NCBI RefSeq assembly: GCF_000585335.1
Contig: NZ_KK073872.1
Span: 2,409,283-2,473,282 of the forward strand
Direction of reading: 5' to 3'
DNA length: 64,000 nt
Source of the DNA: Cloacibacillus evryensis DSM 19522
Lineage (GTDB): Bacteria > Synergistota > Synergistia > Synergistales > Synergistaceae
Shown piece after piece: positions 5,485 through 13,859 of the stretch. Position 1 is the first letter of the stretch; each line of letters opens with the position of its first letter. The translations under genes were made by a program, and so were the position numbers. The notes under the pieces are model-generated. The model searched no databases and was not told where the DNA came from. It saw only the letters and a list, made by a program, of their open reading frames with translations.

Positions 5485-6918
5485 TCATTCATCCTCCAAA
5501 TTGTCGGCTTCGGTCTGGATAACCTCCTCTTCACCGGAGACAGGGAGCTGCTGGACGTTTTTCAGGGCGCGGTTTATCGCTCTTGTACGCGTGCCGGCTT
5601 TGTCAAGTTCTTTTCCGGCCTGGTCTATCTTCTGCCGCGTCTTCTCCAGCACTTCGCCGAATTTTTCAAACTCGGTCTTTACTTTACCGAGGAGCACCCA
5701 GACTTCGCTTGATCGTTTTTCGATCGCGAGGGTACGGAACCCCATCTGGAGGCTGTTGAGCAAGGCGCAGATGGTGGTCGGCCCGGCCGGTACGACGCGG
5801 AAGTCGCGCGAGAGTTGTTCGCATAGGCCGTCGATGCGCAGCACCTCGGCGTAGAGCCCTTCTATCGGCAGATAGAGGATGCCGAAGTCTGTCGTGAAGG
5901 GAGGTTCGATATATTTGACGTGTATCGTCTTTGCCTCTTCGAGTACGCGAAGCCGCAGCGCCTTCTGCTGTTCCGTGATCTGCTGGCTGTCGCCGCTCTC
6001 CGAGGCGGAGATGAGGCGCTGGTAGTCTTCTATCGGGAACTTTGAGTCTATCGGCAGCCACACTTTGCCGCTTTCGTCGTCGGCGCCCGGGAGGATGACG
6101 GCGAACTCCACGCGCTCCGTACAATTCGGGCGCGTCGCGACGTTTTCCGCGTACTGTTCCCTGGTCAGCATCTGTTCAAGCAGGACGCGCAGCTGCATCT
6201 CTCCCCAGCTGCCGCGCACCTTGACGTTCGACAGCACTTTTTTAAGATCGCCGACATCGGATGTGAGGGCGCGCATCTCCCCCAGCCCCTTGTGCACCTG
6301 CTCCAGGCGCTCGGAAACTGTGGTGAAGGCCTCGCCGAGCCGTTTTTCGAGCGTCGAATGGAGCTGTTCGTCGACGGTGGCGCGCATTTTTTCCAATTTT
6401 TCTTCGTTGCTCTTGTGCAGCTCGCGCAGCCGTTCCTCAACGACTCCGCGCACCGCCTCCAGCTTTTCTTCGTTGAGGCGGCTGATGTTCGTCAGCTGGT
6501 TGGAAAAGGCCGCGAGGCTCTCCGCCTGCTGGCCGCTGATCTCTTTGATGCGCGTCGCCTGAGTCTCGCCGAGCTTCGTCAGCTGCGCGGAAAATGTCTG
6601 AAAGCTCTCGCGCTGGAGATCGCCGATCTCCTTGATGCGCTTCGCCTGCGCGTCGCCGAATGTGCTGATCCCGCGAGCCTGCTCAGCCCGCGCTTCTGTC
6701 GCCGCCTCGCGCTGTTCTTTGCGCATCGAGCCAAGGTTGTCGTTGAGCCGGCCCTCCGTCTCGTCAAGCCTTATCTCAATCTTCTGCAGCCGCGTAAGCA
6801 GCTCCCTCGTCGCCTGCTCCATCGCACCCGCGCTTTCGCGAAAGCGGGAGAGCGACATAACGATATATATGCCCGCAAGCAGGGCGAGGGCCCCAATTCC
6901 AATCAATACCGGCATCAT
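5485..6918 (-). CDS. rmuC: RmuC family DNA recombination protein
   Basis: 477 aa from the ATG at 6918, preceded by GGAAGG at 9 bases; the ATG at 6939 lacks a ribosome site. One membrane helix (LIGIGALALLAGIYIVM) is followed by a long coiled coil (about residues 30-220, repeated Arg/Glu/Gln heptads such as EEKLEKMRATVDEQLHS). Then comes the conserved RmuC domain (VRGSWGEMQLRVLLEQML, LPIDSKFPIEDY). RmuC proteins limit recombination at inverted repeats and are predicted nucleases of the PD-(D/E)XK fold; the exact activity is not settled. Confidence 0.93.
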   Translation of the reverse strand: MMPVLIGIGALALLAGIYIVMSLSRFRESAGAMEQATRELLTRLQKIEIRLDETEGRLNDNLGSMRKEQREAATEARAEQARGISTFGDAQAKRIKEIGDLQRESFQTFSAQLTKLGETQATRIKEISGQQAESLAAFSNQLTNISRLNEEKLEAVRGVVEERLRELHKSNEEKLEKMRATVDEQLHSTLEKRLGEAFTTVSERLEQVHKGLGEMRALTSDVGDLKKVLSNVKVRGSWGEMQLRVLLEQMLTREQYAENVATRPNCTERVEFAVILPGADDESGKVWLPIDSKFPIEDYQRLISASESGDSQQITEQQKALRLRVLEEAKTIHVKYIEPPFTTDFGILYLPIEGLYAEVLRIDGLCEQLSRDFRVVPAGPTTICALLNSLQMGFRTLAIEKRSSEVWVLLGKVKTEFEKFGEVLEKTRQKIDQAGKELDKAGTRTRAINRALKNVQQLPVSGEEEVIQTEADNLEDE

Positions 6919-6961
6919 TAACACGCACCTTCCATTCATCTGCCGCTATTATAAACTATTT

Positions 6962-7182
6962 CGACGAAGGCCTCCGTTTGCGTAAGCAAACGTTTTAAAC
7001 TTCCTTCGAGGGCGGCTAGTGCCGAGCGCGCCGCCCCTGTCCGCTTAAGAGCGGACATTTCAAAATTCCTCAGGGGCAAGCCTTCGGATGCGTTTGCCGA
7101 GCGCGTCAATCGGCGACGACGGCCTCCGTTTGCGCAAGCAAACATTTTAAACTTCCTTGGAGGGCGGCTAGTGCCGAATGCG
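6962..7182. repeat. Three tandem structured repeats with compensatory stem changes
   Basis: The whole rmuC to response-regulator gap is filled by three diverged copies of one unit: 6962-7030, about 7031-7106, and 7114-7182. Copies 1 and 3 differ at 6 of 69 positions. Each has an outer stem, an inner stem with a 4-base loop, and about 15 A/T-rich bases before the outer stem closes. Inner stems: GTTTGC/GCAAAC (6976-6991), GTCCGCT/AGCGGAC (7039-7056), GTTTGC/GCAAAC (7128-7143). Outer stems: CCTC/GAGG, GCCCCT/AGGGGC, CCTCC/GGAGG. GCCGAGCGCG-like ends recur at 7021, 7097 and 7173. The middle copy has changed both stems on both sides, which argues that folding is preserved. Confidence 0.75.
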
Positions 7183-7833
7183 TCAATCGGCCAGCGTCAG
7201 GAACCCCTCGCGTATCGCGTATTTCGTGAGCTCGGCCATGCTTTCGCAGCCAAGCTTGTCCATGATGCGGCGGCGGTGGGTATCTACGGTGTTTTTGCTT
7301 ATGAAGAGCGCGTCTGCGACCTGTTTGCTGTTGCGTCCCTTGACGAGGAGCTGCAGCACCTCTATCTCGCGTTCGGAGAGCGGGCTCGCGCAAACGACGT
7401 CTTCGTTGCGGAGCAGCCGCAGGTAATCGCCGACAAGCACGGTACATACCTTCGGCGAGAGGTATATCTCTTTCCTGCTCACGGAGCGGATCGCGTCAAG
7501 CATCAACTCCGGCGAGCTCTCTTTCAGGACATAACCGCGCGCGCCGGCCTTCAATGCTTCGGCGATGAAACGCCGGTCATTATGCATAGAAATGACAATG
7601 ACGGCGATATCGGGGAATTCAGAGCATATCTTCTCCGTCGCCTGTATGCCGTTCATATTGGGCATGGTGACGTCCATCAGGACGACCTCCGGCTTTAACT
7701 GCCGGACAGCGTTTACAGCCTCAAGCCCGTCGGAGGCGGAGCCTACGATCTCAATATCTTTTTCCCTGCTCAGCAGGCTCCTGAGCCCCTCGCGGAACAG
7801 CTCGTGGTCGTCGGCAATGAACAGTCTTATCAT
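7183..7833 (-). CDS. NarL/DegU-type response regulator
   Basis: 216 aa. N-terminal receiver domain with the acidic pocket (ADDHELF, residues 7-13), the phosphoacceptor Asp54 in VLMDVTMPNMNG, and the conserved Lys in VLKESSP. C-terminal LuxR-type helix-turn-helix at about residues 148-200 (LSEREIEVLQLLVKGRNSKQ, then KNTVDTHRRRIMDKLG). It overlaps the upstream histidine kinase by 4 bases (ATGA) and is clearly its partner. The stop codon abuts the tandem repeat block. Target genes are unknown. Confidence 0.95.
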   Translation of the reverse strand: MIRLFIADDHELFREGLRSLLSREKDIEIVGSASDGLEAVNAVRQLKPEVVLMDVTMPNMNGIQATEKICSEFPDIAVIVISMHNDRRFIAEALKAGARGYVLKESSPELMLDAIRSVSRKEIYLSPKVCTVLVGDYLRLLRNEDVVCASPLSEREIEVLQLLVKGRNSKQVADALFISKNTVDTHRRRIMDKLGCESMAELTKYAIREGFLTLAD

Positions 7834-12548: not shown

Positions 12549-13859
12549 CTAAATGCTTACTTTGAATACCTTGGGTTCATTGATATCTTCCGCGAGCGCG
12601 TCAAGCGCGACGCCGACTCTGTGGTAACGGAGCGCCCACTCTTCTTCTTTCGAGAGCGTGGGATCGCCGAGAGGATAGGGAACGGATGTCGTGGGAACTA
12701 TTCTGTTTGAGCCGACCGTCTTCGCGACGTCGATGAGGTTCGCCATGACGACGACGGGGAATCCTGCGCGTTCAATTTCTTTGGCCATCGTTGCACCGCA
12801 ACGAGTACAGGTTCCTCAGGTGGCGGTGAGGATCACGGCGTCAACTCCGGCCTGTTTCAGCTCGGCGGCGATCTCCTTGCCGAACTTTGCCGCGTAGTTC
12901 TGCGTCGTCCCCGTGCCTACGGTCACATAGTAGTAGTCGTAAAGCTTCGCGAATTTGCCCTCTTTCTCGTAGGCGCGCATAGCGTCGAGGGGAATGCCGC
13001 GGTCAGGAACCGCACACATGGCTTCGGGGTCAAATCCGGCGTGGATCGTCTTAAACTCTCCGGCGGGAAGGCGGTCCATACCGGCGATGTTGTATTTGCC
13101 CCACTTCTGGGCGGAGGCGCTCTGTATCCTGTCTGGGTTATCCGAGGGAACGACGCCGCTCGAAGATACCAGCGCTATCGTGCACTGCGACAGATCCTTC
13201 ACCGCCGCTGCCGGCGGTATCCTGTCGGTCTTCGGGATCACGAGCTCTGTCTGGAATGGTTTGCCGTTGAGTTTCTTGACAAGCATGTCGATGACGCGGT
13301 CGGCGGCCATCACTTCGCCTGGCGCGGGGATCTCGCTGCGGATGCCGCGTGGGAAATAGCCTTCATCCGCGGCGGGGAGAAGCTTCTCGCCCTTCGCGAT
13401 CTTCTCGGCATACTTCGCCATCAGCGTGAGGTCGTCCTTCATAAATGTCGCCTTGCGTCCGCCCTTGAAGATGATGCAGGAACTTTTGTACTCCTCAACT
13501 CCGGGGTTTTCCTCGTTCATCGATGTGATGACGGGCACGCCGTAACGCTCGGCGACGGCCTTGCAGAGAAGTCCGCAGCCTACTCCGTAACGTCCGGCCA
13601 TAAAGGCTGGACCGGCGAAGAAAATATCGAACTGCTTCGTGTCGAGCCAGGCGAATATTTCCGCGAGCGCTTCGTCCGTGTGGTTGGTGATATAGTTGTC
13701 GCCGCAGACAAAGGTATTTGTGACTTCCACATCCGGCATCATCTGATTGAGCATCAGCGAGCAGCCGATAAGTCCGTCATGGAAGATCGGCTTACTGTCA
13801 GCCGCGTCTTCGCCGCCCACCTGGCCGAAGAATTGGTTTATATAATGTATGGCTTTCAT
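12549..13859 (-). CDS. grdH: Betaine/glycine reductase selenoprotein B, in-frame UGA = Sec348
   Basis: One 436-aa gene interrupted by TGA at 12818-12816. Reading through gives ILTAT-U-GTCTRCGAT-MAKEIERAG, the UxxC redox motif of the substrate-specific selenoprotein B of glycine/sarcosine/betaine reductase (GrdB/GrdF/GrdH). Both sides of the TGA match one family: the N-terminal part KAIHYINQFFGQVGGEDAAD and the C-terminal part GSNRIVPTTSVPYPLGDP. A hairpin immediately after the UGA fits a bacterial SECIS. It starts 13 bases after grdI. Betaine as substrate is inferred from the adjacent BCCT transporter; GrdB (glycine) or GrdF (sarcosine) cannot be excluded. Confidence 0.93.
12789..12818 (-). 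promoter_or_regulatory. SECIS-like hairpin after the Sec UGA
   Basis: Twelve bases after the in-frame TGA (12818-12816) the mRNA can form CGTTGC-GGU-GCAACG, a 6-bp stem with a small loop. Position and size fit the coding-region selenocysteine insertion element that bacterial SelB needs. Confidence 0.7.

Follow-up and report, generated by a model that had tools for sequence, protein, structure and literature searches.

Three structured repeats fill the spacer between rmuC and a response regulator (RR) gene in Cloacibacillus evryensis. They raise the question of whether this DNA encodes an RNA serving its neighbors or carries copies of an element found elsewhere. We analyzed a 64,000-nucleotide stretch of the genome containing the locus (the window), together with the rest of the genome and those of relatives.

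Three structured units in the rmuC-RR spacer

We observed three structured units at 6962-7192 of the window. Two are near-identical, and the middle one belongs to a sister subtype with other stems (Table 1). Stem A, hairpin B (with four loop bases) and an unpaired arm rich in A and T recur in every unit. Units 2 and 3 add a further stem, hairpin C, whose loop is ATGCGTNN; in unit 1 hairpin C is truncated at the start of unit 2. The middle unit reads AAGC...CGGATGCGTTTGCCG and its subtype has many relatives elsewhere, whereas units 1 and 3 read GGCTAGTGCCGAATGCGTCAATCGGC. Copies 1 (6962-7030) and 3 (7114-7182) lie 152 nt apart and were 91% identical over 69 nt. The middle unit folded better than its shuffled versions (z = -4.3; 0/200 as good), as did copy 1 (z = -3.5) and the whole array on the plus strand (z = -3.5). 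Copy 3 alone was unexceptional compared to shuffles (z = -1.0).

The original prediction had placed three structured repeats in this spacer and was largely reproduced, including the hairpin B stems that it gave. The outer stem that it proposed, CCTCC/GGAGG, is present in copy 3 only. Copy 1 reads CGAGG, which breaks one pair, and its minimum free energy structure favors another pairing. The middle copy was described as having different stems that still pair; the pairs hold, and this copy represents a separate subtype, not a sister of the other two that has mutated. The last copy does not end exactly at the RR stop codon as proposed. Unit 3 runs to ~7192, and the stop TGA (7185-7183, minus strand) and the two preceding codons sit within its terminal hairpin C, GCCGAATGCGTCAATCGGC (7173-7191). 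The C-terminal codons and stop of the RR gene (..LTLAD-stop) come from unit 3; element-free relatives end in ..LTLE-stop or ..LALD-stop.

The true start of rmuC may be the ATG at ~6918 rather than 6939; orthologues align from MMPVLIG. The conserved TAGTTTATAAT between the array and rmuC is -10-like, and no full sigma-70 match was found there. We also observed an imperfect 34-bp palindrome inside rmuC (arms 83% complementary) and, elsewhere in the window, a SECIS_4 selenocysteine insertion element, where there is probably a selenoprotein gene.

Table 1. Positions of features in the window and of a larger repeat in the C. evryensis genome.
Feature	Position	Strand	Details
rmuC, downstream of array	5485..6939	-	Pfam PF02646, E 1.5e-73
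Palindrome inside rmuC	6822-6855		34 bp, imperfect
TAGTTTATAAT	6948..6958	-	conserved in C. evryensis, G001, G020
Unit 1 (subtype II)	6962..7030		arm TTTTAAACTTCCTTC
Unit 1 stem A	6971-6974/7008-7011		imperfect
Unit 1 hairpin B	6976-6991		GTTTGC-GTAA-GCAAAC
Unit 2 (subtype I, the one in genes)	7029..7102		R1 match 74.3 bits, E 9e-14 in whole genome
Unit 2 stem A	7033-7038/7072-7077		GCCCCT/AGGGGC
Unit 2 hairpin B	7039-7056		GTCCGCT-TAAG-AGCGGAC
Unit 2 single-stranded arm	7057-7071
Unit 2 hairpin C	7085-7099		CGG-ATGCGTTTG-CCG
Unit 3 (subtype II)	7117..7192		near-duplicate of unit 1; R1 match 62.2 bits, E 6e-11
Unit 3 stem A	7123-7127/7159-7163		CCTCC/GGAGG
Unit 3 hairpin B	7128-7143		GTTTGC-GCAA-GCAAAC
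Unit 3 hairpin C	7173-7191		GCCGA-ATGCGTCAA-TCGGC
RR gene	7183..7833	-	Response_reg + GerE/LuxR (Pfam)
SECIS_4	12778-12815	-	60.9 bits
Larger repeat, C. evryensis	C1:2759618, 237387, 2574862, 81762, 3126553 and others		empty forms L246-L256

A repeat family with a conserved fold

A DNA search of the C. evryensis genome returned relatives at 444989, 671589, 226360 and 3122639, and a pattern search gave more. We built a covariance model with a three-helix structure (R1) from an alignment of 22 copies (MAFFT). At E < 1e-7, R1 found 18 copies in the 3.49-Mb genome; relaxing the cutoff to E < 0.01 raised the count to 22. Matches were patchy across the family (14 of 53 genomes, 8 of 22 genera), and several of those at E 1e-4 to 1e-2 are calls of the model only. 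Strong matches were limited to three genera, g1 (C. evryensis and G001), g9 (G009, G027 and G034) and g20 (G020). Across the order, 10 of 183 genomes matched at E ≤ 1e-4, every one of them in the same family.

The unit is 75-82 nt long: stem A encloses hairpin B and is followed by an arm and then by hairpin C. The ~15-nt unpaired arm is conserved (like ATNTNAAANTTCCTNA). In the 22-copy alignment, 89.9% of cells were paired and 14 of 18 pairs had changes on both sides (0/500 shuffles). The 61-copy alignment, which was fitted to R1 and so leans towards structure, gave the same answer as the 22-copy alignment, which is free of that bias (91.4% of cells paired; double changes in 17 of 18 pairs; 0/500 shuffles). 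The 61 copies had 207 double-change cells compared to 55 ± 5.5 in a shuffle control that ignores relatedness, an effect far exceeding the tool's stated bias; slid controls were 35-42% paired. Scanning with a covariance model gave further copies in both the C. evryensis genome and related genomes, and the covariation extends beyond the three window copies. The predicted conserved structure, and membership in a REP/MITE-like family, are supported by these relatives and by overwhelming covariation.

Subtype II units carry GACG (CGTC on the other strand) just before stem A in C. evryensis, G020, G027, G029 and G015; subtype I units do not. The loci with this tag were L114, L125, L134, L126, L135, L207, L128 and 7115-7118 of the window. 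Related intergenic units of like architecture occur in other genera (L117-L121, L127, L130 and L131, in G008, G011, G026, G061 and G064), and these have GATC at both ends (TGATC...GAGATC).

Weak R1 matches in C. evryensis and G001 were part of a larger palindromic repeat that lies between genes and has GTAAATCGGCGTTTA inverted repeats at its borders. In the same genome, copies of this repeat either carry or lack a related ~82-bp module at one exact point (junction GGCGA/GGAC). The module ends in GCATGCGGATGCGTTTACCGC, which resembles the 3' half of a subtype I unit. The difference is either an insertion into the larger repeat or a clean loss.

Copies in reading frames of protein genes

We examined every strong locus outside the window for long reading frames and observed that most C. 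evryensis copies lie in-frame in protein genes. Host genes were named from Pfam or by recognition of their translations, and MurG additionally by PDB matches. Units were present in NudC (two), a patatin-like protein (three, directly after the signal peptide), an [FeFe]-hydrogenase-like protein (one), a NusG-II-domain protein (one inside, one just upstream) and MurG (one). By sequence recognition, we take further hosts to be a LivG-like ABC protein (two units at the C-terminus), MurJ (an N-terminal array), ThrB (a decayed copy at the C-terminus) and a ClC channel (a decayed copy at the N-terminus). Recognized in the same way, other hosts in G001 are presumably a nitrogenase-component-like oxidoreductase and a ferredoxin/CCG-domain-like protein. 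The N-terminal copies of MurJ and the patatin-like protein may lie partly upstream of the true start. Predicted translation as part of a protein, which the original prediction had set against its own reading, applies to most other copies and not to the three in the window.

Start-to-start spacing in coding arrays was 75, 78 or 81 (multiples of 3, 10/10), with the caveat that spacings inside one array are non-independent, so that these represent six arrays rather than ten events. Spacing in intergenic arrays was 64, 79, 79 and 88. Subtype I units have two to six open frames and subtype II units fewer, commonly two or less. The same minus-strand frame is used in eight genes and gives AADASAGLPPEEVLTVRQGEQGAA-like peptides; the NudC insert would encode the peptide AADASAGLPPEEI... 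The MurJ copies and one G001 copy are on the opposite strand, and G001:2569889 uses a third frame. Because copies occur in more than one strand and frame, the rule is that a unit has an open frame and a length divisible by 3; it need not encode one particular peptide. This pattern is what survival in genes would leave after selection against disrupting copies, and it does not imply that insertion prefers frames.

Occupied and empty orthologous sites

The C. evryensis MurG contains a 78-bp (26-residue) insert between its two domains, with a clean cut compared to G001 in the DNA alignment. Neither G001 nor five other species have this insert in their MurG, and the PDB alignment places it after the N-domain, past the GVPVRDF motif. 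MurG is expected to be essential, so the insert-bearing protein should be functional. NudC has 52 extra residues (2 × 26), and its orthologues in G001, G020, G027, G009 and G021 have no insert. We observed ~26 extra residues in the [FeFe]-hydrogenase-like protein compared to five relatives, ~25 within the NusG-II domain, and ~25 of decayed sequence at the ClC N-terminus. LivG has two units in C. evryensis, one decayed unit in G001 and none in the others. The MurJ N-terminus has about four units in C. evryensis, four in G009, one to two in G027 and G034, and half a unit in G001 (L083, L109, L110, L113).

The RR-rmuC gap also differed between genomes. A contig search with the RR gave one useful relative, the same MAG contig as G020, and otherwise distant regulators. 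The gap is empty in G001 (RR end LTLE-stop), has two units in G020 (types 1 and 2, same order; LTLAE-stop) and three in C. evryensis (LTLAD-stop). Unit 1 is thus also found at the orthologous place in G020, and unit 3 has no counterpart there. None of the window units was present at this place in the sister species G001, nor in G014, G021 or G027. RR identity to C. evryensis was 91% for G001 and 74-77% for G020. Because G001 is the closer relative and yet its site is empty, the data suggest either a clean loss in G001 or transfer or re-insertion between lineages. In the G001 gap (L200), a terminator-like GGGGCGGTTTTTTT follows the RR stop; C. evryensis has the array there and lacks this sequence, and the array may have taken the terminator's place.

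Comparison with known palindromic elements

Rickettsia palindromic elements (RPEs; Ogata et al. 2000, 2002, as cited in PMC10969869 and PMC3733652) are, in these accounts, small palindromes, many of them in-frame in unrelated protein genes and others intergenic. Their insertion is polymorphic between related species and they have no known transposase, as in the Synergistaceae element. The review PMC10969869 gives a length of ~150 bp, places nearly half of RPEs in ORFs, and finds a similar process conceivable in other prokaryotes. Likened by these descriptions, the Synergistaceae element differs in phylum, in length (75-82 nt), and in its three-helix fold, conserved arm and head-to-tail arrays with multiple-of-3 spacing. 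We observed two RPE-like traits: a palindrome at many unrelated sites (18 strong C. evryensis copies with a conserved fold), and in-frame inserts missing from orthologues (MurG, NudC, hydrogenase-like, NusG-II and ClC). Homology to RPE-1 to RPE-10 is unlikely because R1 matches are confined to one family of the order.

CGTC-tagged REPs (PMC3733652), which include RPE-4 and RPE-6, are built from a single stem of 8-9 bp, a loop of 4-5 nt and a short tail. They resemble our element in being palindromic and in having intragenic members and no dedicated transposase, and the GACG/CGTC at one end of subtype II units may correspond to their tag. Subtype I units are untagged, and the Synergistaceae element has three helices rather than a single stem. 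GTAG REPs and REPtrons with RAYT (PMC3733652) are likewise palindromic and clustered, supply stop codons for flanking ORFs and are sometimes intragenic. Unlike these, the Synergistaceae element has no GTAG end and the C. evryensis genome has no Y1 transposase. PARCEL (PMC2996958), a defined amphipathic repeat at the protein level (DUF285) that occurs in proteins whose function is unassigned, shares 25-residue tandem units from DNA with dyad symmetry. We rejected it as a relative on that paper's definition; here the hosts are housekeeping proteins and the inserts occur in more than one frame. As for MITEs, the unit is palindromic, and no target-site duplication was definable at the MurG or NudC junctions. 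We set aside attC-type integron sites on the basis of the consensus, which has no visible GTTRRRY/RYYYAAC boxes.

Origin of the units

The window units are likely copies of a small, non-autonomous mobile palindromic element of the Synergistaceae that is RPE-like. A cis-acting structured RNA (an RR 3' UTR or rmuC leader acting as a terminator, processing or stability element) under local regulatory selection would fit the strong fold on both strands and the position between two same-strand genes, retained in a second genus (G020). However, the place is empty in the sister species and three other genomes, most copies lie within reading frames of unrelated genes, and no terminator-type T tract was found. 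Rfam 15 gave chance matches only, whether searched at the gathering thresholds or at relaxed ones (the best was SL1 with 20 bits, E 0.24). G.U (28) and A.C (26) departures in the stems were balanced, which argues against an RNA strand preference. We consider this explanation quite unlikely, and the units probably do not form an RNA gene linked to rmuC or the RR gene. Selection on functional peptide modules, with the DNA palindrome secondary, could account for the shared frame and similar peptides in eight genes. It does not fit the copies on the opposite strand or in a third frame, stems that vary by compensating pairs, or intergenic copies that retain the fold, and it is very improbable.

Mobilization of an ordinary REP/BIME in trans by a RAYT (Y1 tyrosine transposase) would agree with palindromic, partly intergenic units that supply stops and enter ORFs, as REPs do (PMC3733652), and Y1 genes exist in G001, G027, G034 and G014. 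Nevertheless, we did not find a transposase or other mobilizer: Y1_Tnp (PF01797) is missing from C. evryensis, the genome richest in copies, and also from G009 and G020, and no unit lies within 1.5 kb of the Y1 loci of the relatives. The RAYT route is thus without support here. Unit length, three helices, head-to-tail arrays, the lack of a GTAG end and a GACG/CGTC end in subtype II only also speak against this explanation, which we regard as unlikely. Quasi-palindrome correction yields perfect arms with freely drifting sequence. The covariation might accordingly have been made mechanically by such template switching rather than by structural selection, with the elements being mobile repeats regardless; the perfect arms, drifting sequence and balanced departures are as expected. 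The conserved unpaired arm, the hairpin C loop and the spread to new sites are left unexplained, and this account is unlikely. Template-switch correction could have produced part of the pair covariation, but not the conserved arm or loop C.

For a mobile palindromic element, the repeat family, its conserved fold, the occupied and empty orthologous sites and the preservation of frame were observed. The element would insert into chromosomal DNA and then often multiply or shrink as a head-to-tail array. Array growth and half-units, as in the MurJ of G001, fit slippage or recombination between direct repeats. Subtype I, stop-free in several frames, would have repeatedly entered protein genes in-frame, each unit contributing 25-26 residues to a linker, loop or terminus, and the stop-richer subtype II would sit between genes. 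In the window, units may have landed at the 3' end of the RR gene and replaced its last codon and stop, so that they now fill the RR-rmuC spacer. We infer that a mobilizing enzyme, supplied in trans, would recognize the folded single strand (ssDNA or RNA). A bolder proposal, possible but doubtful, is a distinct RAYT-independent class of non-autonomous element, recognized when folded (ssDNA or RNA). Its stop-poor, multiple-of-3, gene-tolerated subtype would have evolved from a stop-containing intergenic one and time and again extended conserved proteins, each unit adding 25-26 residues.

Overall, the repeat is real and well supported. The original prediction was right about structure, and its REP/MITE-like reading was right in kind. 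Its reading as a structured RNA particular to this spacer is probably wrong, given that the sister species has no units at the corresponding site and that most copies lie in-frame in unrelated protein genes. Hairpin C, mobility and the in-frame habit are additions to it. As far as we searched, no publication described palindromic repeats of this kind in Synergistetes. Because REPs and RPEs inserted within genes are known from other phyla, the Synergistaceae element is not a new category. The best-known palindromic inserts read in-frame within proteins are those of Rickettsia, whose members live as obligate intracellular bacteria and have reduced genomes. Here the process is seen in a Synergistaceae genome of 3.5 Mb, and the sister species has clear empty sites, murG included. 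The greatest interest lies outside the window, in the precise in-frame insertions in conserved proteins. How hairpin elements that have no known transposase spread, and how proteins tolerate such inserts, are directly testable in this family.
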